Positions 1,677 through 23,376 of a stretch of 23,376 bases of DNA are shown one piece after another. The position numbers were made by a program, and so were the translations under genes. The notes beneath the pieces are model-generated. The model was not told the origin of the DNA. It saw only the letters and a list, made by a program, of their open reading frames with translations, and searched no databases. The DNA comes from a virus. The stretch covers positions 1 to 23,376 of IMG/VR virus record IMGVR_UViG_3300020187_000226; one strand, given 5' to 3'. Positions within the stretch are counted from its first letter, which is position 1; every line of letters begins with the position of its first letter.

Positions 1677-1700
1677 CTGCTTAATTGCAGGGGCTTTTTT
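1673..1700 (+). terminator. rho-independent terminator of the plus-strand operon
   Basis: GCCCCTGC (1673-1680) and GCAGGGGC (1687-1694) form a perfect 8-bp GC-rich stem with a 6-nt loop (TTAATT). Six T residues follow on the plus strand (1695-1700). The T-run overlaps the stop codon (TAA, 1701-1699) of the convergent minus-strand giant gene. Read from the minus strand, the stem is followed by AGTTCAAGGG rather than a T-run, so it should work in one direction only. Confidence 0.88.
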
Positions 1701-4700
1701 AACTTACAGGAGAGGACAACCCACCATCATATTCACCAGCACTTCTACGCATACTAGGTGAGTACTGCATCCCACCTACCATCTCTTCGGATACGCGTTG
1801 GAAGTTTTTATAAGAATTTTTAAATGAGTCCGAAGTTATTACTAGCTTTCTAGCATCAGATGGAAGCCTACTATTGTGTTCATTTGCTTCTTCATATGCT
1901 CTACGTAACCCTTCAACGTCTCCTTCTCTGCGCGCTTTATTAGCCTTACGCAGTATTTTCCTTTTGCGATCCTGCATAGAATAGTATTTTTGCCGCTCGT
2001 TACGGTTCATATTAAGTTGCTCAATATGAGCGTGGCTTGCAAACCCCAACAACTGCCCTGCTAATGTGTACGGACTTGTCGCTGTTATTTCATCGCCACG
2101 CAGGGTTAAATTGCCTTCGGTAGCGTAACGTCCAGTTTTCATAACATTGCGTACCGCCGCAGGAGATGCAGCTTCAATACCACGCCAGACATTACCCTCT
2201 GCAATAAGGCTTGCGCCTCTGCTAACCTGACTTGTTATACCGATGACAGGACCACCTAACTGTTCTGCCAAAGTAAACAGCGGGTTCTGGTCTTTGTCTA
2301 TAAGAGGTGGACGGTACAGCATATTGTTAAGTGCGATGCGATCACCGATTTCAAGACCTGTCATGTCGACAAGCCCGCCATACACAGGATCACCCATCCA
2401 CTTTTTAGTCATAACATCCCAGTTATCTTCATCTTCATCTCTAAATAACAAGTCGTACATAATGCCGAGTTCTCCAAACAACGGCATTCCTGATGCACCT
2501 GCGATAAGTCCTGTAGTTATAAGAAAGTTAGCCCCTTGTGCGCGGGCTATCCTACGACCATCTACCGCATCTTGGTATGCTTCTTCAGTATCATACTGAT
2601 CTCGTGGTAATACTTTAGTGGCATCATTAAGCATGCGAAGCATCATGTAGTATTTACTAATCGCAAATCGTTTAAACAAGAATAGGATGTTACCTATTGG
2701 ACCCTGTGCGTATACGGGGCGTCCTGCCGATGCAGTACCTCCGAGAGTAAACTCTACAAAATCTACTGCCGCCTCAGCCGCAGCTTGTTTGTCCGCATCG
2801 GTTAATGCTTTTTTACCACCATTACTTAGTTTATCTATTTCTAGTTTATAGGCGGCGACCAGTGATACTTCACGTCCGTAGCGTTCCGAGTGATGAAACA
2901 TAGCCCCACCCCACTTCTGTGAAGTGTCAATTATCTTCTTACCAATACGGGATACCCTATCTGAACCTGTATCTCCTGTATACATATCTAATTCTAAGGT
3001 TTCTTGCGTTAGTGATTGACCCATTTGCGCTTGTTCAGTTGCATATCTAACCAACACATCTAAATCACGTAATCCTTCTGGCACAGATGCAGGATCACTA
3101 AAATCTAAATTACCTAATGATAATCCGAAAGCCCCTAGATCATACTGCTCTTTAACTTTGTCACCATTCTCATCGTCTACAGTTAGAGTTTTAGCGCGAG
3201 GTGCAGCAGCTATTGCCTTAACCGCATCACCAAATGCTCGGGTAGTTTTACCCGCGCCATATTTACCCGACAGTAACGGCATCACCGACATACCTACATC
3301 GAAGAAGGTCAAGGCCGCAGACGAGAAGTTTAACCCCATAGTCCAGTTAAATCCAAGGTTTGTAGCTATCTGCGACCAGCGTGATACGTTGGGTCGCTGT
3401 CCAAATTCTGCGATCTTTTGTAGTCGATCACCTATTTCAGCGGTCTCTGGGTCTGTGGTAAGTTTAACAATGTCACCCATCACACCTTGAATTTCGGCAC
3501 TAGATTGTAGTTGAACAACCTGACGATTAAGGTCACGGCCTTTAGTCTCCATCATATCTATAAGATCGAAGTTAGCGAGGGAGTAGCCTGTAGGTGTAGT
3601 GTCACCCAAGAAACCACGGACGCCCTTACGTGTTCGGAACCCTTGCATAAACGAGCGTTCAGGCAGAGCATCTAATGATAGGTCAAGAATATCGCTGATG
3701 ACCTTACTACCTTTGCCACCTTCCATCTTCTGCACACCTGCAGCCTGTAAGACATTCAACACATTAAACACGAACCCCGACGAAGGTGCTTTGCCATAAT
3801 CGCTGTTTGGGGTTAGCTTTGTAGCTTCAGGTTCTAAACTTTCTGCAGACAGCATGGGGTTTGGTCTGCTTTGCCCCGTCTTCTCGTCAAAGATTGTATC
3901 TAAATTTGCTGCTATAACATCTGGTCGTTTAAGCATAGCTGCATTATAATCTTTGACCTTTTGTTTTGCTTCCATCATTGCAATTTTAGTGGGAAAATAT
4001 TCCACAAAACGATCTACCTGTGGCTTGGCATCAGGGTCTTGATCTTGCGGGTCGATAGCTGTGTAAGATAGACGATAACTACCCTTACGCATAAGTGGGA
4101 AGTATGGCGTGATTATACCGCTGTCCTTGAGTAGTAGTTCAGACAACTTATCAAACGCGGTCTTACGTACCGCTGCATCGTCACTTATACTATTTATACG
4201 ATCCCTTAGAGCAGGTGCGATTTCGTCATATGTCTCTTGGAAATAGTTACGCATGGTGCGGTATACGCGCTGCCCATCTTCACCTATATTTTTGTAGTCT
4301 TCTGCCAACGCATCATAGACTGCCAACTTATCTTTACTTAACGGGGCGATCTTGGTTATCTTAAAATCAGGATGTTTAGCCGTAAACTCTTTAATATAGT
4401 TTTCACGTCTCTCTAACGTGGAATGATTTGTGCGTTCCTTTTCTAACGATACCGGATCAGTAGTTACAACGCCATAAGAAGTGTAGATATTACGCTTAAC
4501 TGATGGGTCTATTCTATTAAGCGTGGATGTAGGTACTAGCTGTTGTAGTGCGTTGTATTGTTCCGCACTCGCTGCCCTACGAAAGTCTTTAATTTGATTT
4601 ACGATGTAATCTAATTTGATCGTCTTATCACGCAATTTAGAACTTTGCTTGTTAATCACCTTGTTTAGACGCATTCCCGCATCATTGTCGTGGTTGCGCT

Positions 4701-7700
4701 TCAACGTGTCGGCAAGAATATTTAACGGGGAGACGCCGTAAAAGAAACTTTTAGCGCCTGTGTATGGCGCTGAGTTTTTAGCGCGGTCCTGCATGTCTCT
4801 TAGCTCTTCGCGTGTAGTAGGTTTCACGGCGTCTGTAGCCTCTTTAGTGGCGTCTACTGCCCCCTCGGGTGTACTAGCTGTAAGATACATAGCGGGAGCG
4901 GCACGGGTGCTTAATTGCGGTGCTAAGATATAGTCTAGTAGCAGATCAGTTCGGTCAAACACTGACTCGGGTGCCCTGCCCATTAAGTTGCGGAACACAC
5001 GGCGTACCGCTTCTTTAAAATTTTGCCAAGCTGTAGGAAATTTTAAACCTGACATAGGTATACCCGCTAACTTAACTTGGAAGTCGGGGTTACTAAACGC
5101 TTCTGCGATAAATTCATCTATGCTTCGTGTCGCATAGTCACTACCTTCGGGCATTTGAGCTTTAACAGCTTCGTATATACGTGTGAGCTGCCGTACTTCT
5201 GGTAGATTTTTCCTAGCTAATTGTGCGGCAGTTCCTGCATGTAGTACCTCATGCAGTATGGTGTGAGCGTTCATGCCTAAATTACTATCTATAGCGATAG
5301 TGTTGGTAGCAGGGTAAAACACACCTGCAGCAACGTTACCCTGCGGGTCTTTAAGTCCACCAGATACCAGTTGTATCTTTGTATCACCTGTATAACCCGC
5401 TAATTTATTTGCTACGGAACGTAGAGCCTTCGATGGACTAATGTTTGCGATAGCTATTAACGCACCGGATAAATCTCCTGCGGCTAATGTGTTACGTATA
5501 CTTGGGGGTAGTGGTACACTCTGTGCATACAACTCACTAGCCAGTAAGTACCTACTATCGTAGTCATCATCACGACTAAGGGTTTCCGACCTACGTTCAA
5601 ATTGGGCTTCAAGTTGTGACTGTGACAGTCCCAGCCCTATACTATCTTGGTTAATATTTTCATCTAAAAGAATATCGGCTGATACTTCTGCGACATTAGC
5701 TTCTGATAGTAAATCAGCGTCCGCTAATAAGGGCGCATCCTTTAGGTACGCTTCTTCTGTCGAATTTAACTTGATTTCGGCTAAGTTTGCTTGATCCTGA
5801 TCGAATTGGTTAGGCTGTCCTTGTGATGCAGCGGCTGCGGCCTTGTTCTTCTTTCTTATGTAGTTTGCATAGTCAGCAGCCAACGCTTTCATACGCGCTT
5901 TTTTATCTGCTTCCTGCGCTCTGTCGTAACCGCCTTCGCTACGCATACGTTCAATACGTTCTGCGCGTTGCCGTGCATATGCTACCGCTCTAGCTTCGGC
6001 TAATACAGCAGCGTCCTGTCCCTCTGGTGAGTTTTCAAAACGTTGCTGCGCTTCTTCTGCCGCCGACATTTCTCTTAGACGTTTATCCTCGTCCCTGCGA
6101 CCTTTTTGGAGTTCACTCTTTCTCTCCCTACGTAACTGTATCTGAGCATCTCGTTCCGCAGGGGTGAGGGTGTGGACCGCCATATCTAGTTGTTCGGCTA
6201 TTACATCAGACGCAAAGTTGTTCACGTCATCCGACATATTGCTTTCCATCCACTGTAACGCCTGCAGTGCTTTTTCTTGCGTCTCGTTACTGTAAAATTC
6301 ATACGCGGCGTCTGATACTTCTGCGGCTTCTTCAAATATGGTATCTCCGTACACAAAGCCATCTTCGGGGTTTAGTGCGGACGCCATAGCGGGTGTGCCT
6401 TCGGGAAACTTTGTAACCTTTGAGGTTCGTTTCTGTATCTTAGGGTTTTTAGGTGAGGACGCAGGAGCATACAGCACCGACACGACTGCTGCTTCTTCTA
6501 TCGCGTCTACAGGACGTAGAAAGTTTTTAAAGAATGCTCGCGCAGCAAAGGCATTCGGGTCTTTCATCTTCTTAGCCGCGTCATCTGTCATATCTAACAA
6601 GTTCAATATGCGTTTTTTGTCTTCTAAATCGGTTATATCAGGTTGCTGGTTTGCGTCCGATATTGCGCCTTGCTGTAGTAGGATACTTCTAGCCGCCTCA
6701 CCTTGTTTAGTGTTTCGTGTGAGAAACAGTTCACCTATCTTGTTGAGTAATAGGTTGCCTTGTAGCGACTCTGCTTCCGCTGCTTCTATTTCGCGGGTCA
6801 GCATGGCCTTTTGCTGTGCTGGTGGCAGTTCACTTATGGCCTCTAGTACTTCTGTCCTAACTTTAACGGGGGCCTTTTCTGCTGTGTAGTTTAACCCACT
6901 TGTGTCTGATATTTTTGGTCCAGCTACAGGGTTAAGAGCCTTATCGTAACTTTGCACGAACTCACTACCCGTTGCACCTGCATCGGGAAATGCTTGATCC
7001 GTAGCGTCACCTACAAACTCTCCACTTTCATCTCTTAAATTTTTGGTCCCAACAGGCAGTTGTGCGCCCTGTTCGGGTTCTGCAACAGGTTCAACTTCGG
7101 GTTCTGTAACAGGTTCAACTTCGGGTTCTGCAACAGGTTCAACTTCGGGTTCTGCAACAGGTTCAACTTCGGGTTCTGTAACAGGTTTAACGCCTGTGCT
7201 ACCATCTAGTTCTGTTGTAGAAGTTATAGTGTCTGGAACTATTGGCGCACTATCAGGTGTACTTTCTACAGTTATAGGTATGTATTTACGTCTGCCTTTT
7301 TTATCGGCAGGGCCAACTATAGGGTTTGTTTCAGCAGCAAGAAGACTAATTAATTTTGCTGCTCGTGCCCCAGAAATTTTTAAATCACGTTGTAAGGCAC
7401 TAACTGAAGCTACCTTACGTTCAGTTACTGATTTTCTAGCATCTTCAAGTAAAGCAGCGTCATCCACTTTAGATTTTACTGTAGGCTCAGTACTTTTAAA
7501 CTGTTGTAATGTTTGATTACCCCCAAGCGTTGATCCTCCATATCTGTCACCAACTTCTGTAGGAGTGTCTTGTAATGTTTGACTACCACCAAGCCCCGCT
7601 ATAAATGCGTCTACATTATCCCCATCTACATCTGAAGCTGATACTCGATCTGCAGCGTTTTCTACAGCGGGAGGCAAACGTCCAGTTAGTCCAGCTAATC

Positions 7701-8769
7701 CTCCAAGTGGAGTTTGTGTTGCTTCAAAGTCCTTTAACCCTGCTGCACTGTAAGTTCCAATTCCCGTAGGTTTTTTAGGCGATGATAATTTGACTGAATC
7801 TACATCACTGCCTACATCTGAAGATGCGTCATCTACAGGAGGTTTTAATTTAGTATCAGTGCCTTTATCTAATGATGGCCTTACTATGTTTATTCCACTA
7901 CCGATTGTACCGCCAAGCAGACCTGCGGCAATACCTACTTCACGATATTCTGCTATTGCCTCTGCATCATCTAAAGGCATACCTGCTTGCCAACGTTCTA
8001 ATACTTGTTGACCAATTTCAGTCGGCACTTCTGATACAGTACCCTGTACCCCGCCTGATACTGCTCTAGTAAATATATTTTTTCCGGGTTTTAATAATCC
8101 GGTAAGTAACAGTCTATCTGCAATAGTATTTAATGTAGCCGATCCTACAGCCGCTGTTAAGGTATTAGTTCTGTTAACAGCGTCTAATTCACCTTTTGCA
8201 ACTTGTTCTTCAGCACGTTGTAAACCGCTGCCATAAAAAAACGGGGTCATAACTCCAATACCTGCAGCACCTCCTACAAGAGGACCACCTGCTAAAGTAC
8301 CTATTCCAGTAGCAGCTAAACCTGCGCCCATTTGAGGTCCAGATTGTCCAGCAATCTCACCCAAATAAGATAGTGTATCTGCAATGCCGCCTTCTCGGGC
8401 TTCATCAAAAGTTCTAAACGGTGTAGTTGTACCTGCACGAGAGAGCTGCGTTCTACGTGCTGCTGCTTCTTGACCAGCGCCAAGATCACTAATAAAGTCA
8501 GACCCTACTACATCACCAAAATCTCTAACAGTAGTACCTAATGCACTGCGCGCTTGTGTTAAGCCAGATTCAAACCCACGACCAAATGCAGTACCATCAT
8601 CTACTGCCTGATCTCCGTAAACACTTTCAAATTTAGTTTCAAAAGCACGTTCTAAGGCTTGAATTTGACCTGTAGCATTAGCAATCTCTTCAGGCGTTGG
8701 CTCGTCTCCAGCAAACTGCACATCATATGTTTTACCGCTGTAGTCGCCCCTGACTTGCATCATGCCCAT
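1699..8769 (-). CDS. giant polyvalent / internal virion (ejection) protein with HEVLH zincin motif, 2356 aa
   Basis: This is probably an internal virion protein injected with the DNA, of the large 'polyvalent protein' type. Visible parts in order: a short N-terminal segment with PTPEEI; Gly/Ala-rich hydrophobic stretches at about 147-182 and 280-297; two copies of an LGG(S/N)QTLQ motif 22 residues apart; an FtsK-gamma-like winged-helix segment at 444-497; an octapeptide PEVEPV(A/T)E repeat at about 526-565; a charged coiled coil at about 867-975; a zincin motif H1173-E-V-L-H1177 with E1219 or E1223 as possible third ligand; and a C-terminal region from about 2000 resembling LPD38, with hydrophobic segment 2077-2108 and a basic C-terminus. 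The ATG at 8769 has AAGGA 9 nt upstream; ATGs at codons 3 and 4 are alternatives. It is the last gene of the block, 12 nt after the 1120-aa gene. Domain calls are from motif recognition; the ejection role is inferred from size and position. Confidence 0.8.
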   Translation of the reverse strand: MGMMQVRGDYSGKTYDVQFAGDEPTPEEIANATGQIQALERAFETKFESVYGDQAVDDGTAFGRGFESGLTQARSALGTTVRDFGDVVGSDFISDLGAGQEAAARRTQLSRAGTTTPFRTFDEAREGGIADTLSYLGEIAGQSGPQMGAGLAATGIGTLAGGPLVGGAAGIGVMTPFFYGSGLQRAEEQVAKGELDAVNRTNTLTAAVGSATLNTIADRLLLTGLLKPGKNIFTRAVSGGVQGTVSEVPTEIGQQVLERWQAGMPLDDAEAIAEYREVGIAAGLLGGTIGSGINIVRPSLDKGTDTKLKPPVDDASSDVGSDVDSVKLSSPKKPTGIGTYSAAGLKDFEATQTPLGGLAGLTGRLPPAVENAADRVSASDVDGDNVDAFIAGLGGSQTLQDTPTEVGDRYGGSTLGGNQTLQQFKSTEPTVKSKVDDAALLEDARKSVTERKVASVSALQRDLKISGARAAKLISLLAAETNPIVGPADKKGRRKYIPITVESTPDSAPIVPDTITSTTELDGSTGVKPVTEPEVEPVAEPEVEPVAEPEVEPVTEPEVEPVAEPEQGAQLPVGTKNLRDESGEFVGDATDQAFPDAGATGSEFVQSYDKALNPVAGPKISDTSGLNYTAEKAPVKVRTEVLEAISELPPAQQKAMLTREIEAAEAESLQGNLLLNKIGELFLTRNTKQGEAARSILLQQGAISDANQQPDITDLEDKKRILNLLDMTDDAAKKMKDPNAFAARAFFKNFLRPVDAIEEAAVVSVLYAPASSPKNPKIQKRTSKVTKFPEGTPAMASALNPEDGFVYGDTIFEEAAEVSDAAYEFYSNETQEKALQALQWMESNMSDDVNNFASDVIAEQLDMAVHTLTPAERDAQIQLRRERKSELQKGRRDEDKRLREMSAAEEAQQRFENSPEGQDAAVLAEARAVAYARQRAERIERMRSEGGYDRAQEADKKARMKALAADYANYIRKKNKAAAAASQGQPNQFDQDQANLAEIKLNSTEEAYLKDAPLLADADLLSEANVAEVSADILLDENINQDSIGLGLSQSQLEAQFERRSETLSRDDDYDSRYLLASELYAQSVPLPPSIRNTLAAGDLSGALIAIANISPSKALRSVANKLAGYTGDTKIQLVSGGLKDPQGNVAAGVFYPATNTIAIDSNLGMNAHTILHEVLHAGTAAQLARKNLPEVRQLTRIYEAVKAQMPEGSDYATRSIDEFIAEAFSNPDFQVKLAGIPMSGLKFPTAWQNFKEAVRRVFRNLMGRAPESVFDRTDLLLDYILAPQLSTRAAPAMYLTASTPEGAVDATKEATDAVKPTTREELRDMQDRAKNSAPYTGAKSFFYGVSPLNILADTLKRNHDNDAGMRLNKVINKQSSKLRDKTIKLDYIVNQIKDFRRAASAEQYNALQQLVPTSTLNRIDPSVKRNIYTSYGVVTTDPVSLEKERTNHSTLERRENYIKEFTAKHPDFKITKIAPLSKDKLAVYDALAEDYKNIGEDGQRVYRTMRNYFQETYDEIAPALRDRINSISDDAAVRKTAFDKLSELLLKDSGIITPYFPLMRKGSYRLSYTAIDPQDQDPDAKPQVDRFVEYFPTKIAMMEAKQKVKDYNAAMLKRPDVIAANLDTIFDEKTGQSRPNPMLSAESLEPEATKLTPNSDYGKAPSSGFVFNVLNVLQAAGVQKMEGGKGSKVISDILDLSLDALPERSFMQGFRTRKGVRGFLGDTTPTGYSLANFDLIDMMETKGRDLNRQVVQLQSSAEIQGVMGDIVKLTTDPETAEIGDRLQKIAEFGQRPNVSRWSQIATNLGFNWTMGLNFSSAALTFFDVGMSVMPLLSGKYGAGKTTRAFGDAVKAIAAAPRAKTLTVDDENGDKVKEQYDLGAFGLSLGNLDFSDPASVPEGLRDLDVLVRYATEQAQMGQSLTQETLELDMYTGDTGSDRVSRIGKKIIDTSQKWGGAMFHHSERYGREVSLVAAYKLEIDKLSNGGKKALTDADKQAAAEAAVDFVEFTLGGTASAGRPVYAQGPIGNILFLFKRFAISKYYMMLRMLNDATKVLPRDQYDTEEAYQDAVDGRRIARAQGANFLITTGLIAGASGMPLFGELGIMYDLLFRDEDEDNWDVMTKKWMGDPVYGGLVDMTGLEIGDRIALNNMLYRPPLIDKDQNPLFTLAEQLGGPVIGITSQVSRGASLIAEGNVWRGIEAASPAAVRNVMKTGRYATEGNLTLRGDEITATSPYTLAGQLLGFASHAHIEQLNMNRNERQKYYSMQDRKRKILRKANKARREGDVEGLRRAYEEANEHNSRLPSDARKLVITSDSFKNSYKNFQRVSEEMVGGMQYSPSMRRSAGEYDGGLSSPVS
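7075..7194 (-). repeat. 24-bp tandem repeat, five units, in frame in the giant gene
   Basis: Five consecutive 24-bp units start at 7075, 7099, 7123, 7147 and 7171. The first four are identical except for one C/T position, and the fifth diverges at its end. On the minus strand each encodes the octapeptide PEVEPVAE or PEVEPVTE, giving an extended acidic Pro/Glu/Val linker. The unit is a multiple of three, so copy-number change would keep the reading frame. Confidence 0.93.
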
Positions 8770-15030: not shown

Positions 15031-15282
15031 TCATACTACTATCCTCAGTTCGCCACCAGCAGTCTTGTAGATACTGTTAACGGCTAGTCCGCCAGATACT
15101 GCTGCTGTGTTATTAGCAAACACAGGAAGATTAGTCATCACTAGAGTTGTACCCCGTATAGGGCCGGGATTGTTTGTCTGTTGGGCAAACAACGAAAAGT
15201 TACGTACAACTTGTGTAAAGTACGATGGAGAGTATTCCGGTGGAGCATCCCCAAAATAAGGTATGGGTACTTCAGTAGTCAT
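15031..15282 (-). CDS. small conserved tail-module protein, 83 aa
   Basis: No known function. It has an N-terminal DAPPEYSPSYFTQVVRNFSLF segment followed by NPGPIRGTTLVMTNLP, and ends with beta-like SIYKTAGGELRIVV. This is a layout I associate with small proteins that accompany the tail-hub gene in marine podoviruses. Its ATG shares one base with the stop of the 620-aa gene (TAATG), and a GGGAG motif inside that gene's last codons lies 6 nt upstream. It is therefore almost certainly translated by coupling and works with the upstream product. No membrane segment or signal peptide is present. Confidence 0.7.
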   Translation of the reverse strand: MTTEVPIPYFGDAPPEYSPSYFTQVVRNFSLFAQQTNNPGPIRGTTLVMTNLPVFANNTAAVSGGLAVNSIYKTAGGELRIVV

Positions 15283-17144
15283 TATCGTCTCCCATCTGGA
15301 CGCACATCTATTCTAGGGGTGCCGAGTCTCCACGATACACCAGACATGCCAGATATAGAGCTTAGTTTAATTGCTACAGACCTACCTCTAATACGTATAT
15401 CTACTTCTTCAGTAAATGTACCTACAGCTATGGGCTGTCCTGTTATGGTGTTATCCTCAGTACCAAAAGCACTGCCACCGGGATTGTTCCTCGCAGATAT
15501 GCTAAGTTCAGCAGATGCTGTAGCGCCACTTGCAGAGTTCCTAAAAGATATATCCGGTAGTATTCTACGCCCAAACATAAATTGATTACCATCCCCTAAC
15601 TCAATTGGGCTAGACTCAATAAATGCTCCTATATCAGACACAGGGTCTGTGCTACCATCATCATTACCAAATTCATGCGTATACAAATACCCGTCTGTAC
15701 TAGCAGCAATAGGTAATCCGCTGTTGGTATTATCCGTCCACGCAGTTCTGGGTAACGAACCGTAATACCATATGTTTTCGGTATAGTTAAAAATAACATA
15801 TTTATCATTATTGGCAGAGTTTTTAGATGGGTAGAACCACCAGACTTCTGAAAACGCAGAGTTGCTAGAAGCCATAACTTTAGCAGACTGAGTTAGGTTA
15901 ATATCATTAAAAACGTATTCTTTTACCGCACAAGGTATCTCTGTTATATTACCATTATAGATATAGAACTGCCCTTTACCCATCCAATAAACAGAATCAC
16001 CTACTGCTACAGCAGCGTTTTGCCCTGCAATAGATATGTTTGTAGATATCTCGGACAATCCGTAGGTAAACGGAGCGCCTACGTACTGCATGGCGTGTGC
16101 AGATACGTCTGTGAGCACAAGAATTTGTTGTTTAGTTTGAACTGCTGCAACAATACTACTGCCTGTACTAAGCTGTAACTCACCTGCCGTAGTAGTATCT
16201 AAGGTACGCCATTCTGTAGCTGATTCTTGATTAGAAAACCGTATAGTTAATGGGTTCTGTACCCCCGGATCGCTTTCTGGATCACACCCAAAAGCTATTA
16301 AATGTCTATCTTTCTCGGACACTAGAATTATATTAGTCACTGTAGGTACAGATTGGGCGTTAGGTAACGTAGACAGTTCAACAGCGCGATTAAGTACACC
16401 ACCAGATAAATCCCAGTAATATATACCACCTCCGCGAAGGGCTATAACAAGGTCTTCTCCAAAGTTGTCCTGCGACCATATGCGTAACGCTGCACCCGCA
16501 ATCTGTACATTTGCTTCGGACCCCCAACCTAGACGAGACCATGCCCCCGCGCCCCAACCACCGCCAAGTACAACAGTGTCTAGCCCTACGTTTATTTGGT
16601 ATGCGCCTTTAGCATTAACCCCACCATTACCAGTATCACTAGCATTTGCGGTCACAGCCGAGGTAATTTCATACGCGGAAGCACTAACATACCCAGTAAT
16701 TTGATACTCTTTGTTAAGTACATCAGCCGTTATTGCACCTCCTAAACTAGCTGCCCCCGAAAAAGTAACAAAGTCATTTAGTAACGCGCCATGCCCTATA
16801 TCATTTACACGTATAACGTCGGAGCCATCTGTGGCTGTGAACGTAACGGGCCTGTTGCTGGCCCTAATAGGAGTAATATCTTCGGGAAAGTTACCTGCTA
16901 GTACGTAAAATTTTAAGTTTGTACCCGCGCCTATAAACGATGTTCCTGATAGATTGCTCCAATTATGTAGTGATCTACACGTCCCTAAAATTGTGGTGTT
17001 AGTTAATCTGACCCACCCCCCAATAGTTTCAGGAAAGCCCATACGAAACCTAATGCGGTTACTATCAAACCAGCCGCCATTATTACTGTACCGCGTAATA
17101 TCACGCACAATGCCCGGTTTGAACTGCAGTTTTGTATAGGCCAT
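15282..17144 (-). CDS. tail hub/nozzle-type structural protein (P22 gp10 / T7 gp12-like), 620 aa
   Basis: Likely a component of the short tail below the portal/adaptor. The N-terminus has the marine-phage hallmark GGWFDSNRIRFRMGFPETIGGW split over residues 23-44. An inserted beta domain at about 97-170 (TATDGSDVIRVNDIGHGALL, then VLNKEYQITGYVSAS) follows, and after it a beta-strand-rich body of propeller type. The stretch AHAMQYVGAPFTYGLSEIST, followed by VGDSVYWMGKGQFYIYNG, recalls the corresponding part of T7 gp12. The C-terminal about 110 residues are a beta domain ending VDIRIRGRSVAIKL. The ATG at 17144 has AGGAG 8 nt upstream, overlapping the endolysin stop. The functional call rests on layout and motif resemblance rather than a search. 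Confidence 0.68.
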   Translation of the reverse strand: MAYTKLQFKPGIVRDITRYSNNGGWFDSNRIRFRMGFPETIGGWVRLTNTTILGTCRSLHNWSNLSGTSFIGAGTNLKFYVLAGNFPEDITPIRASNRPVTFTATDGSDVIRVNDIGHGALLNDFVTFSGAASLGGAITADVLNKEYQITGYVSASAYEITSAVTANASDTGNGGVNAKGAYQINVGLDTVVLGGGWGAGAWSRLGWGSEANVQIAGAALRIWSQDNFGEDLVIALRGGGIYYWDLSGGVLNRAVELSTLPNAQSVPTVTNIILVSEKDRHLIAFGCDPESDPGVQNPLTIRFSNQESATEWRTLDTTTAGELQLSTGSSIVAAVQTKQQILVLTDVSAHAMQYVGAPFTYGLSEISTNISIAGQNAAVAVGDSVYWMGKGQFYIYNGNITEIPCAVKEYVFNDINLTQSAKVMASSNSAFSEVWWFYPSKNSANNDKYVIFNYTENIWYYGSLPRTAWTDNTNSGLPIAASTDGYLYTHEFGNDDGSTDPVSDIGAFIESSPIELGDGNQFMFGRRILPDISFRNSASGATASAELSISARNNPGGSAFGTEDNTITGQPIAVGTFTEEVDIRIRGRSVAIKLSSISGMSGVSWRLGTPRIDVRPDGRR

Positions 17145-19217: not shown

Positions 19218-19397
19218 TTACCCCATACGACTAAGAATTGTTAACAACATGATAATGGTTGCGCCAGATGTAGCTATAAGTACGGTCTCAAGACGTTTTA
19301 TTCTAGTAAAGACCTCTTTAAACTGTATCCTGACTTCCGTTTGCAAAGCAGCCATATCCCTTTCTAACGCGGAGACGCGTTCATCTATATCAGGCAT
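19218..19397 (-). CDS. XhlA/hemolysin-like coiled coil plus TM protein, 59 aa
   Basis: Read directly from the minus strand: ATG at 19397-19395, TAA at 19220-19218. The protein opens with MPDIDERVSALERDMAALQ, a heptad-like coiled coil, continues through EVFTRIKRLETVL, and ends with a single membrane segment (IATSGATIIMLLTILSRMG). This is the classical layout of XhlA-type phage lysis proteins: an N-terminal coiled coil of about 35 residues and a C-terminal TM. Its ATG overlaps the stop of the 91-aa gene by 8 nt (ATGCCTGA). It opens the lysis-like cluster and probably works with the holin candidates downstream. Gene call firm; role moderate. Confidence 0.72.
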   Translation of the reverse strand: MPDIDERVSALERDMAALQTEVRIQFKEVFTRIKRLETVLIATSGATIIMLLTILSRMG

Positions 19398-19665
19398 TAG
19401 GTGCAGTCGGCCAAGTTACATCAGGAAATCCGTCCTGCGCCGGTAAGTCTCTGAGCGCCTGTCGGTACGCGCGCCACTCGTCAGTTATCCTGTCAGCCAG
19501 AGCCATATGATCAGACGCCACTAGTAGTTCATCACGCTGCGCTCTGACTTGCGTTGCGCTTGCTGCCACGGGGTCAGCTTGAAAATCAGGCCAGTTTGAC
19601 ATATCCTCTGCATCATCAAAGACTGCACCATCGCCCGTTGTTTTATTGTACCAAATTTTAGACAT
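19390..19665 (-). CDS. phage tail assembly chaperone-like protein, 91 aa
   Basis: A small soluble accessory protein of the Phage_tail_APC type, expected to assist folding or assembly of the fibre encoded just upstream. The N-terminal half (IWYNKTTGDGAVF, then NWPDFQADP) precedes the family core. That core reads RAQRDELLVASDH, then DEWRAYRQALRDLPAQDGFP and VTWP. Its ATG lies inside the last codons of the 331-aa fibre gene (8-nt overlap ATGTCTAA), so expression is coupled to it. A shorter paralog occurs at 22840-23019 with the same core. Confidence 0.82.
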   Translation of the reverse strand: MSKIWYNKTTGDGAVFDDAEDMSNWPDFQADPVAASATQVRAQRDELLVASDHMALADRITDEWRAYRQALRDLPAQDGFPDVTWPTAPNA

Positions 19666-20653
19666 GATAAACCCTTACATTTCCTGCTGCACCTGTGCCG
19701 CCTGTGCCGCCTGCATTTTGGCCTGCAGCACCGCCACCTCCCGGGAAAATTCCATTTACGCTTGCTGTTGTTCCACCGTTGCCCGAAAGCAAACTTGTAG
19801 AGGTAGCATTGCCAAAACGCTGTGGCGCTTGACCATATCCACCGCCAAAAACAACATTCTGCCCACCGCCAGCACCAAACATTCTGGTATATCCGCTGGG
19901 CAACGCATTGATTGAAAAAGTGTACGCTTCGGCAGCACCGCTATTTAAATAAGTACCACTATTCTTAATATTTGGAGCCGTTACGACATTAAGTATGTTA
20001 TCAGTGTCAGAGTCAGGCGTTGAATAAATAGTACCGCCATTTCCTGAAGTTAGAGTTAAAGTTGTGGGGTTACCGACAATGGGACTAGCATTTTGGCTAA
20101 TGCCTGCTACAGCCGCGCCAATAGCAAAAGCCGCGCCATTAAACAGCCCAGCTTTGCCGTAGATTAATTTGACATTACCGCCAGCAGCAGCATAAGTTTC
20201 AGCCCCGCCGCCGCCACTTGATATAAGAAAAAACCACACGTAGGCATCGTCGGACAAGCTGCCCTTAGACCATGTGCCAGATGAATTGTATGTGTTAGTT
20301 GGGCTGGCCCAGTCTGAAGGAAAAACAACCGCTGCGGGGTCTGAACTAACCGTAGCCCAAGCCGCTGTTGTGCCGTTAGACTGAAGTAATTGTGCGTTAG
20401 AGCCTATGGTCAGCGGAGCAGCCACACCTGACGAGTTACCTACTTGTATAGCACCCTGTGCTAGAGCGCCCGTAACCGCGCCCACGACAGCAAGATTTGT
20501 AGTGCCGTCAGCCACCGTAGCCACTGTAGCGTTAGCGCCGTTCTTGATTACAACGTCTGTGCTGCTACCATCGCCCTTGAGAACCAAGCCATCAGAAGCT
20601 GTGGTTGTTACAGAGGATGACGCGAATCCTGCAAGGTCTCTAGCTTTTGTCAT
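19658..20653 (-). CDS. tail fibre / adhesin with Gly-rich C-terminus, 331 aa
   Basis: Likely a receptor-binding fibre. The N-terminus (MTKARDLAGFASSSVTTTAS) and GDGSSTDVVIKNGANATVAT at about 27-46 follow the pattern of many marine-phage fibres whose N-terminal part docks onto the tail. Residues about 60-110 are beta-helical linker repeats (GNSSGVAAPLTIGSNAQLLQ). The C-terminal half is Gly-rich, with GGGG at 147-150 and a terminal PGGGGAAGQNAGGTGGTGAA segment before a final VRVYH strand. This recalls the Gly-rich receptor-binding tips of T-even gp38-type adhesins (fold analogy, not homology). The start ATG lies 3 nt after the 85-aa gene's stop, with GGAG 6 nt upstream. Confidence 0.8.
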   Translation of the reverse strand: MTKARDLAGFASSSVTTTASDGLVLKGDGSSTDVVIKNGANATVATVADGTTNLAVVGAVTGALAQGAIQVGNSSGVAAPLTIGSNAQLLQSNGTTAAWATVSSDPAAVVFPSDWASPTNTYNSSGTWSKGSLSDDAYVWFFLISSGGGGAETYAAAGGNVKLIYGKAGLFNGAAFAIGAAVAGISQNASPIVGNPTTLTLTSGNGGTIYSTPDSDTDNILNVVTAPNIKNSGTYLNSGAAEAYTFSINALPSGYTRMFGAGGGQNVVFGGGYGQAPQRFGNATSTSLLSGNGGTTASVNGIFPGGGGAAGQNAGGTGGTGAAGNVRVYHV

Positions 20654-20656
20654 GTC

Positions 20657-20914
20657 TTACTCCGCTTCTTCTTCGGGCATCGCTACCCATGCTGGGTTGT
20701 CAGACCAAGTTGTACCGTCAAACATGTACTTTCCACCACCAACGTATTCATTAGGCTCAGTAACGCTTTCGTACAAAAGACAATTAGAACTATTCATATC
20801 ACCAATGTAATATTCTACTGGTTCTCCCACAGCAACGTTTACACTATTAATTGTTATAATTTTGCTATCCGCAAACATGTAGTAAGAAATACCATCTTTG
20901 CATAAAGTCTTCAT
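20657..20914 (-). CDS. fibre-associated small protein, 85 aa
   Basis: Probably an accessory of the preceding beta-propeller fibre. It is soluble and beta-rich, with YVGGGKYMFDGTTWSDNPAW near the C-terminus and an acidic tail (MPEEEAE). The FDG.TW..NP.WV pattern recurs in small proteins next to fibre genes of marine phages (recollection). Its ATG shares one base with the fibre's stop (TGATG), and GAGGGG lies about 7 nt upstream, so it is translationally coupled. It has the same position relative to its fibre as the two chaperone-like proteins but no clear sequence similarity to them. Confidence 0.65.
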   Translation of the reverse strand: MKTLCKDGISYYMFADSKIITINSVNVAVGEPVEYYIGDMNSSNCLLYESVTEPNEYVGGGKYMFDGTTWSDNPAWVAMPEEEAE

Positions 20915-22830
20915 CAGACTGACCCCTCGCTAATGTAAAGTTTAGTGGCAGAAATTGCTTTTCCTATTTTATTAGCGGGACCAGCGGCAACTGCTGACCC
21001 TGTTGTTGGAAGCCCATAGTCAAACCCTGTTATAAGACTTGATTGGCTTTCATTTATGCCGCCCACCACTGTAATTGCCCCCGCAGCACCGTCAGAAATA
21101 TTTTCTTTGGCTATACCGACATATGTGGGGGCAGAAGGGTTTATGACCATAGCTCCAGCGCTGCCGTTTACAACAACCGCCCTCGAAGTATCAGGGTCGT
21201 AAATCATGCCACCACTATTGCCAACAACCTGACTGTTTGGAATTTTTCTTATTGGCCCTGCTACAACAACGGTTCCGCTGACTTTAACAGTTTGAATGAC
21301 AGCACCGGACACACTGCCAGTATAATTAAGTTCAACAGTATTGCTGTCAGAATTAAAGGCCATACCCATAGTGCTGCAAGTTTCTAAACCGTTTACCACA
21401 GTAGGATTTCCAAAGCTGATAGTTGTGCCACTAACTGTCCCAACCAGAACAGTAGGCAAATTTCCATTAGCTGAATCTGGGAAGCCAAAGACTACCTTGT
21501 TAGCATTTGTGTCGTAAACAGGGTACATCGTACTAAGGCCTGTAAAGCCGACTGTGGCAGACAAGTCTATCGCAGTGCCAAACGAAATGCTTGTTCCTGA
21601 AACTGTCCCAACTACACACTTTGAAGTCGATCCTACTACATAAAAAATAACAACCTTATTAGTATCAGGGTCATAAACCGCGCCACGCTGATTGCTGCCA
21701 GTAGCGCTATCCATAACAACAACCGAACCCCACGAAACGCTTGTCCCGCTAGTTGTTACTACATACGCAACGTGCCTATAGCCGCTACCAAGGTTTTTGC
21801 GATAAACAGCTAATGTTTTGTTTGAACCAACATTTAGCCATATAAGGCCAGCATCAGTAATATCTCCTGATTCATTAGGACCAGTAACGGCTGAACCAAA
21901 CGTCATTGAATTGCCGCTAACAATTCCAGAAATTGCATGTGGCATTTGAGGATTGTTTTGAACCGTAACATACAAAATGTTTGTTCTGCCAGTAGCGGGA
22001 TCAAAAGCAGGACGGGCCAGATATGTTCCTACACTGTTTAACGCAACCTCAGACGCAATGCTTATAGTGTTATCGGCAGCGATAGTGCAAACTTGCACGT
22101 ATCCGTAGTAGGGAGAATTGCTGCTTCGTGCTGATGCTATTACAAGTTTGTTGGCATTGGTGTCATAAGTTATTCCACATCTGTTAAGTTGAGCGCCTAT
22201 GGTGGTTGTTGAACTTGTAAGACTTCCGTTATAAGGCGAAAAAGTGCTTATTGTTCCATCAGGAATTATACCAACAATTTGACCAGCGGTGATTGCACCT
22301 GTAGCCGTGAATGTTTGCTCACCGCCACCGCTTGCCTCTACCCAACTAATGTCATCAGCACCAGCGGTCAGTACTGTACCCGTTGCGCCTTTGCTTAGTC
22401 TTGCTGTAGCTGCACTGCTGTTACCGTAAATAATAGAACCACGGGGTACTGCGGCTAGCGTGTTTAATTCAGCCGCCGTGCTGGTAACTCCAAGATTTGG
22501 TAAAGTTATACCCAAGTTTGTTCTTGATGTAGATGCACTTACTACGTCCGACAAATTGTTTGCAGCGGCTAACCCACCACTAGCTACAAAGGATGTAAAC
22601 GCTACAATCTCTATAATGTCATTAACCAAAGCAGCGGTAGCCAACACAACGTCAGAGCCGTTAGTCGCGGTATAATCCGCAGCGGCTAGTTTTACGCCGT
22701 TCATATATACATCGACAAAACCTACGCTGTACCCGCTTGTAGCAAAGGTAGTCTGCCCTGCCGTAGCAGTAAAAGCCTGACGCTTCTGCGTGGCCTGTGG
22801 TACTGGCTGTGTGCCTATGTATCCTGACAT
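20914..22830 (-). CDS. tail fibre with seven-repeat beta-propeller-like body, 638 aa
   Basis: Likely a host-recognition fibre. Residues 20-81 hold the marine-phage fibre N-terminal domain (GQTTFATSGYSVGFVDVYMN, then NGSDVVLA and NDIIEIVAF). A linker with NNLSDVVSASTSRTNLGI (91-108) and RGSIIYGNSSAATARLSKG (130-148) follows. Seven repeats start near 218, 273, 328, 383, 436, 488 and 540, spaced 52-55 residues. Each has a YD(P/T)xxNKVVI-like strand pair, and several have a GTVSGTxISFG strand, as expected for a seven-bladed propeller. The last 70 residues (YVGIAKENISDGAAGAITVV onward) form a C-terminal domain shared with the partial fibre at the right edge. The ATG has GGAG 6 nt upstream. Confidence 0.85.
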   Translation of the reverse strand: MSGYIGTQPVPQATQKRQAFTATAGQTTFATSGYSVGFVDVYMNGVKLAAADYTATNGSDVVLATAALVNDIIEIVAFTSFVASGGLAAANNLSDVVSASTSRTNLGITLPNLGVTSTAAELNTLAAVPRGSIIYGNSSAATARLSKGATGTVLTAGADDISWVEASGGGEQTFTATGAITAGQIVGIIPDGTISTFSPYNGSLTSSTTTIGAQLNRCGITYDTNANKLVIASARSSNSPYYGYVQVCTIAADNTISIASEVALNSVGTYLARPAFDPATGRTNILYVTVQNNPQMPHAISGIVSGNSMTFGSAVTGPNESGDITDAGLIWLNVGSNKTLAVYRKNLGSGYRHVAYVVTTSGTSVSWGSVVVMDSATGSNQRGAVYDPDTNKVVIFYVVGSTSKCVVGTVSGTSISFGTAIDLSATVGFTGLSTMYPVYDTNANKVVFGFPDSANGNLPTVLVGTVSGTTISFGNPTVVNGLETCSTMGMAFNSDSNTVELNYTGSVSGAVIQTVKVSGTVVVAGPIRKIPNSQVVGNSGGMIYDPDTSRAVVVNGSAGAMVINPSAPTYVGIAKENISDGAAGAITVVGGINESQSSLITGFDYGLPTTGSAVAAGPANKIGKAISATKLYISEGSV

Positions 22831-22839
22831 ACTTTACTC

Positions 22840-23019
22840 CTACTCAGGCCAAAGGGGCCAAGTTATGTTTTCGGGAAACCCAGCTTGTTGAGGTACATCA
22901 CGCAATGCTTGTCGAAAAGTGCGCCACTCATCCGTCACATAGTCAGGCCAAACGTGACTGTCAGATAGTTCAAGCATCCTTTTACGTTGCTCTCTAGCTG
23001 CATCAGAAAGATCAGACAT
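22840..23019 (-). CDS. short tail assembly chaperone-like protein, 59 aa
   Basis: Read directly from the minus strand: ATG at 23019-23017, TAG at 22842-22840. The product is a compact version of the APC-type chaperone at 19390-19665. It begins MSDLSDAAREQRKRMLELSD and carries the core DEWRTFRQALRDVPQQAGFP followed by NITWPLWPE. It lacks the N-terminal about 35 residues of the longer paralog. The ATG shares one base with the stop of the partial fibre gene (TAATG), so it should serve that fibre. The next fibre starts 9 nt downstream of its stop. No other reading frame competes here. Confidence 0.8.
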   Translation of the reverse strand: MSDLSDAAREQRKRMLELSDSHVWPDYVTDEWRTFRQALRDVPQQAGFPENITWPLWPE

Positions 23020-23376
23020 TATAATTTCCCTGCGTTAAGATAAATTGAAGAAGAAGATAGAGCCACACCAAAGGCTCCATCCCCAGAAACCCCAATTTCC
23101 GAAATAGTTGCTGAACCACTTGGTAATCCATACTCCGTACCAGCCGTTAGCCCACTTACAGATGTATTAATTCCACCAACGACTGTAACCGTGCCAGTTG
23201 CCCCATTTGAAATATTTTCTGCCGCAATACCTACAAAAGATGGAGCTGTTACATTGTAAATGCGAACATTAGAGGCGTCAACATTTACAATAACCCCAGC
23301 GTCAGGATCGTAAACCGAATCGCTAAATGTGCCTGCGCCCCACCGAGTTCTTGAGGCTAAGGGTCCAAACACTACC
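23019..23376 (-). CDS. tail fibre, C-terminal part only (5' end beyond window)
   Basis: The frame is open to the right edge. A GTG at 23372 could be read as a start, but the protein begins in the middle of a beta strand, so the real start lies outside. What is visible is one propeller-like repeat (SDSVYDPDAGVIVNVDASNV) and then a C-terminal domain (FVGIAAENISNGATGTVTVV, GGINTSVSGLTAGTEYGLPS). These match the end of the 638-aa fibre in order and spacing, so the two fibres are paralogs at least over this part. It is followed with a 1-nt overlap by the 59-aa chaperone-like gene. Confidence 0.8.
   Translation of the reverse strand, partial: VVFGPLASRTRWGAGTFSDSVYDPDAGVIVNVDASNVRIYNVTAPSFVGIAAENISNGATGTVTVVGGINTSVSGLTAGTEYGLPSGSATISEIGVSGDGAFGVALSSSSIYLNAGKL

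Follow-up and report, generated by a model that had tools for sequence, protein, structure and literature searches.

The window analysed here, a virus record of 23,376 bases, carries three fibre genes in a row, and raises the question of what kind of tip the middle one bears and what that tip may be for. All features named below lie on the minus strand (−), where the order is slot-1 fibre, 59-aa APC ORF, slot-2 fibre, 85-aa ORF, slot-3 fibre and 91-aa APC ORF. Slot 1 is represented by the 3' end of a paralogue (23019–23376) that is cut by the contig edge and is 43% identical to slot-2 residues 536–637; the gene is complete in locus L003 (which matches the window at 100% identity along 5,217 bp), where its propeller shares 25% identity with the slot-2 propeller of the window. 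The 59-aa ORF (22840–23019) overlaps the slot-1 stop (TAATG) and matches Phage_tail_APC (PF16778; 57.7 bits, cut-off 26.6). Next comes the slot-2 fibre (20914–22830), whose stop is overlapped (TGATG) by the 85-aa MKTL ORF (20657–20914). The slot-3 fibre (19658–20653) joins an MTKARDLAGF anchor to a Gly-rich tip in place of a propeller, and is followed by a 91-aa ORF with a Phage_tail_APC (PF16778) domain (19390–19665). Similar Gly-rich tips also sit on the slot-2 anchors of other loci, with 69% identity over 257 aa in L037, 46% in L026 and 37% in L029. Farther along the strand are an endolysin, a virion protein resembling phage stabilisation proteins and an ejection protein; the virus is probably a short-tailed phage. 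The 620-aa protein encoded at 15282–17144 (−) shares 40% identity with a protein of phage DSL-LC04 that is annotated as a stabilisation protein, and 35% with a protein of roseophage CRP-901, and a very long ORF (2,356 aa) occupies 1699–8769 (−).

The slot-2 fibre is a modular protein of 638 aa, formed by an N-terminal anchor, a stem and a frame domain with an inserted, predicted seven-bladed propeller. An earlier note, made from the letters of this DNA, had described an ORF with seven regular repeats at 20914–22830, and we confirm both the ORF and the repeats. Their cores, located by AB turns of the model and by motif matches, begin at residues 222, 276, 332, 386, 439, 492 and 544, with spacings of 54, 56, 54, 53, 53 and 52 (range 52–56 residues); the count and regular spacing given earlier for starts between residues 218 and 540 hold, with the true-register cores beginning 3–4 residues later. 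A YDPxTNKVVI-like core had been assigned to every repeat. We find its YDPxTNK-like part plain in five of the seven, and degenerate in blade 3 (LNVGSNKT) and blade 6 (FNSDSNTV). The four SGxSxSFG-type strands also claimed are present at residues 305, 361, 411 and 467, accompanied by a degenerate fifth at 518. The top 40-residue self-match at lags of 45–61 scores 46 (lag 56), whereas 500 shuffles average 19.3 and reach 44 at most. Averaged over the whole core at a single lag, the score stays within shuffles (best −0.19 at lag 106; shuffle maxima mean −0.32, largest −0.01) owing to the divergence and uneven spacing of the repeats, and one sequence by itself is thus modest evidence for them. It is the unit lengths of the family and the predicted structure that settle the count of seven.

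AlphaFold2, run on frame plus propeller (470 aa) with a 97-sequence alignment, returns a closed seven-bladed β-propeller (pLDDT 87.8, pTM 0.88). A first model, from a 40-sequence alignment, is a closed propeller too (residues 1–144 have pLDDT < 50). The seven-bladed reading proposed earlier is therefore borne out by two runs on different alignments, and the elongated β-solenoid or Ig chain that had been named as its refutation is ruled out, both models being closed rings. The propeller spans residues 194–563 (21142–22251). Six blades are complete in themselves, with four strands each: blade 1 (residues 216–258, 22057–22185), blade 2 (271–311, 21898–22020), blade 3 (330–367, 21730–21843), blade 4 (378–417, 21580–21699), blade 5 (438–473, 21412–21519) and blade 6 (485–529, 21244–21378). 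Blade 7 (541–563, 21142–21210) has three, its fourth being supplied by residues 194–196 from ahead of repeat 1, which close the ring; the 97-sequence model thus holds 27 blade strands plus the closing strand. On either side of the ring lie conserved flanks, residues 169–193 (22252–22326; GGEQxFTATGAITAGxxVG) and 564–638 (20917–21141; VGxAxExISNGATGKVTVxGGINTSQSGL), which look like the two halves of one small β domain split by the propeller, and which we call the frame.

Structure searches give propellers as the best matches to the ring. With the propeller part of the first model (residues ~198–569), the VIA-align matches listed include CylK (Z 30.4), YncE (Z 29.5) and a PLL lectin (Z 27.8); with the second model the list is headed by YncE (Z 28.4, 304 residues aligned) and a PLL lectin (Z 27.7, 311 residues aligned), and more Photorhabdus lectins, Sec12, integrin alpha and WD40 rings stand below them, propeller matches lying at Z 25–28. 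Foldseek puts the Photorhabdus lectin PHL in the first row for the second model (E 1.2e-6, on a par with a TolB chain), and for both models lists a mixture of rings that includes TolB and sialidases. CylK, YncE and the PLL lectins are seven-bladed propellers; TolB and the sialidases are six-bladed rings. A search of viral structural models gives as its third match a 515-aa protein of phage ICBM2 (E 1.4e-21), of the same length as gp49 of that phage, to which we return below. Used as a single-sequence query, the slot-2 fibre matches no Pfam family over its cut-off, no PHROG and no PDB chain at E 10. Among 40 members of the family, ten Pfam families are matched at E 0.1; sialidase/BNR, Kelch, PQQ and WD40, of which the earlier note had proposed the first three for a search, are absent from them. 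Three PHROGs, one of them a virion structural protein, are matched at E 0.01, each by one or two of the 40 relatives. Likeness of fold is by itself no proof of function.

Mapping variation onto the ring separates its two faces. BC and DA loops lie on one face of a propeller. AB turns have four residues in all seven blades of the slot-2 fibre model, and inserted residues per sequence in the 97-sequence alignment number 0.00 in AB and 0.10 in CD, against 8.51 in BC and 6.45 in DA; strand C columns hold a further 4.35, probably alignment slack beside BC, and the loop counts are to that extent not clean. Mean entropy is 2.75 in BC and DA versus 1.85 in AB and CD (Mann–Whitney p 1.4e-11, 97 sequences). 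Substitutions show the same division: across 16 disjoint pairs, taken from 47 pairs with 85–98.5% identity, dN/dS is 0.66 (0.51–0.87) for BC and DA versus 0.11 (0.06–0.19) for AB and CD, with strands at 0.29 and frame at 0.18. The variable face, at dN/dS below 1, is compatible with relaxed constraint and is no demonstration of positive selection. As the BC and DA loops vary while the AB and CD turns are conserved, this face looks like a binding surface, a candidacy read from the aligned sequences.

A rival reading makes the propeller an enzyme, a depolymerase of the sialidase or lyase kind acting on glycans of the host surface. In its favour, the fold matches include sialidases and a rhamnose-glucuronate lyase, the enzyme CylK leads with the first model, and phage endosialidases are described as containing a propeller fold (PMC4901313). 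Against this, the only BC and DA positions conserved in at least 60% of the 97 aligned units (a few rows of alignment A1 are truncated) are G202, S240, V262, G312, G368, S369, G418 and G474, none of them charged, and the 40 members bring no BNR or sialidase match in Pfam at E 0.1. We regard an enzymatic tip as improbable, save perhaps in a subgroup with a site of its own.

The remainder of the protein points to the tail. Its N-terminal anchor, residues 1–90 (22561–22830), matches phage records annotated as tail fibre: a stretch starting at residue 32–38 and ending at 81–146 finds 29 phage records, 23 of which carry that annotation there, from pelagiphages, roseophages, cyanophages and a few others. 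The same search finds no match to the propeller part at E 1e-5. Between anchor and frame lies the stem, residues 91–168 (22327–22560).

The small ORF behind the tip may link it to fibre assembly. Chaperone-family (PF16778) ORFs lie directly downstream of slots 1 and 3, and slot 2 has the MKTL ORF instead, which has no Pfam or PHROG match at E 0.1. Both kinds meet in an isolate, Lentibacter phage vB_LenP_ICBM2, whose gp48, annotated as a tail assembly chaperone, has an N-terminal half corresponding to the MKTL ORF (43% over 77 aa, E 2e-21) and an APC half that is 56% identical over 52 aa to the 59-aa ORF of the window. Because gp48 joins the two, a single kind of fibre chaperone has probably been divided between the MKTL ORF and the APC ORF, and the 85-aa ORF after slot 2 is, from these similarities, a putative tail-fibre assembly chaperone or, probably, half of one. 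Directly before gp48 lies gp49 ('hypothetical protein'), which matches the frame-plus-propeller profile over positions 2–466 of 470 (233 bits). Like the window, where the small ORF is a putative chaperone, ICBM2 has a frame and propeller, matched over the whole length, and directly downstream an annotated chaperone; it differs in that gp49, of putative role, shares 27.6% identity with the slot-2 tip of L010, a sister tip, and in having one fused chaperone where the window has the halves as separate ORFs after different fibres. The paper describing ICBM2 assigns tail fibres and assembly proteins to the stretch from the terminase to the end of the genome, which includes gp49; the word 'propeller' is absent from its main text.

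These neighbours also bear on whether the protein could be a head fibre or capsid decoration. The frame has a weak likeness to Phage_cement_2 (PF09956), seen in one of 40 members (E 0.016) and in the fragment of slot 1, which scores 11.7 bits (E 0.005) where the cut-off is 24; both matches fall short of the cut-off. The anchor, on the other hand, is common to annotated tail fibres, the neighbouring ORFs are Phage_tail_APC, and the ICBM2 counterpart falls within the region that its authors assign to tail fibres and tail assembly proteins, which makes a place on the head very unlikely.

Reading the protein as a tail fibre, we find its frame and propeller to be a recurrent unit. Among 149 loci, gathered by similarity to the slot-2 tip and with some contigs under two locus ids, 98 of 104 distinct full units measure 429–512 aa, so blade number is probably kept. 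The other six are of 730–860 aa (L079:3974, L111:8807, L112:447, L127:1944, L127:4457 and L137:5071) and perhaps contain two propellers or an extra domain. Two or more full units occur in 27 of the 106 loci that have one (some contigs are counted twice). The unit is also found behind other N-termini, in tandem rows of up to six: L104:763–11850, on a 21.9-kb contig, has six propeller-fibre genes in tandem, and L111, L112, L122, L124, L127, L130 and L136 have three each (L127 and L136 are apparent near copies). Within such arrays the N-termini are more conserved than the propellers in L104 (78% versus 52% identity) and L130 (76% versus 41%), and hardly so in L124 (55% versus 50%). In bacterial and archaeal genomes 258 stretches fit the search pattern and none encodes a relative, an absence of little weight, as the scan covered just two short patterns.

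Comparison between slots shows how anchor and tip part company. Sixteen slot-2 proteins, picked by a start motif that favours alike N-termini, have a mean identity of 92.5% over the first 85 residues versus 33% over their propellers (120 pairs). When 48 propellers are arranged in a tree and labelled by anchor (26 slot 1, 19 slot 2, 3 slot 3), the label changes 17 times, against a mean of 17.4 for shuffled labels, so propeller type says nothing about slot; taking slot labels singly, well-supported branches alone force 13, 12 and 3 changes. This tree omits the six units of 730–860 aa, 48 (by subtraction) with another N-terminus and two slot-1-like units excluded by the motif cut, and carries a long-branch warning; label counts are equal in quick and careful trees. 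The kind of small ORF after the stop behaves otherwise. For the 42 of 48 rows scored (APC 23, MKTL 19; three have no such ORF and three lie too near a contig end), it changes twice, against a shuffled mean of ~14, and none of 500 shuffles is as low. To judge from this tree, the kind of small ORF follows the propeller, and the propeller appears independent of the N-terminal anchor.

DNA comparison locates the borders. In all six pairs of like propellers in different slots, hand-chosen as close neighbours on the tree, similarity begins 3–69 nt before the frame (66–69 nt ahead, within the stem, in four of them) and runs on through the small ORF to a point 202–278 nt downstream of the stop. Synonymous divergence is 0.38 in the N-terminal half of the frame versus 0.09–0.16 in other classes, which is what a border of exchange should show. 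These comparisons indicate that the tip and the small ORF overlapping or directly after its stop travel together, as a single DNA cassette, between three or more fibre anchors. Gly-rich tips move between slots too, as the slot-3 tip of the window and the slot-2 tip of L037 show. Where one locus has two slotted propellers, they are 25–37% identical in all eight locus pairs (L019 and L021 are near copies). That the variable face is merely unconstrained, and the propeller a spacer or generally sticky surface, would suit a dN/dS below 1 but is highly improbable, as there is tight conservation of unit length and of the opposite face, the small ORF remains associated with its tip, and eight of eight locus pairs maintain two different types side by side.

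Parts of this arrangement have precedents. The C-terminal domain of phiKZ gp131 (PDB 4GBF) is, like the tip in the window, a seven-bladed propeller in a tail structure, located at the baseplate periphery and suggested, unconfirmed, to be receptor-binding or an enzyme; the passage on it in PMC4901313 describes no moving cassette with a chaperone, which sets it apart, and 4GBF is not among the 50 VIA-align rows listed for either model, an absence that does not count against a match. The receptor-binding protein of Staphylococcus phage phi11 shares the presence of a propeller in a tail protein, there trimeric with a cavity proposed for GlcNAc, and differs in its five blades, its platform between stem and tower and its Gram-positive host, again as described in PMC4901313; our model shows seven blades and no five-bladed ring of this type. 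Close in fold are the lectins PLL and PHL of Photorhabdus (Z ~26–28 over ~305–313 residues), whose structures were determined with sugars. These differ in being bacterial lectins at ~7–11% identity, and the slot-2 protein alone as query finds no PDB match at E 10 that would make them relatives in sequence. For the module as a whole the comparison is with Alteromonas phages A5 and V22, which show that marine phages of distant families share a fibre and its cognate chaperone; theirs have lectin-like head domains and a DUF4376 chaperone, and PMC10579305 makes no use of the word 'propeller'. Propellers in phage receptor-binding and baseplate proteins, and marine fibre-plus-chaperone modules, are already known (PMC4901313 and PMC10579305). 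New, as far as our searches show, is that a seven-bladed tip inserted in a frame is combined with a single variable face and with exchange between slots together with a small ORF; none of the open-licence literature matches listed has a title on a frame-plus-propeller family.

We consider it very probable that the slot-2 protein is a tail fibre with a frame-inserted seven-bladed tip, one conserved and one variable face, and a tip-plus-ORF cassette, with putative roles in docking, folding and binding. The N-terminus would dock on the tail, the cognate small protein would help the tip to fold, and the variable face may bind a host surface molecule, most likely a glycan; with two different propellers per virus, their exchange could shift host range. 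A ligand-binding propeller is plausible, in view of one-sided variability and the exchange of tips with chaperone-type ORFs. Swappable tips with a helper gene suggest interchangeable grippers for choosing bacterial hosts.

Which hosts a marine phage selects is difficult to tell from its sequence. With moderate confidence, we favour the view that these tips form an unnamed marine phage family, with a fixed seven-bladed scaffold in a frame, a face of length-variable loops and a plug-in cassette with a matched chaperone, which passes between the slots of one virus group, occurs also behind other N-termini in arrays of up to six, and would constitute a shared pool of interchangeable host-specificity modules. 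If this is true, the individual residues of the surface that sets specificity can be listed (those of the BC and DA loops) and its matched chaperone is identified, and an 85-aa ORF with no Pfam or PHROG family gains a likely role. As the tip would move as a unit, tip typing and host prediction from metagenomes would become testable, and the family would be comparable in principle to antibody-like scaffolds.
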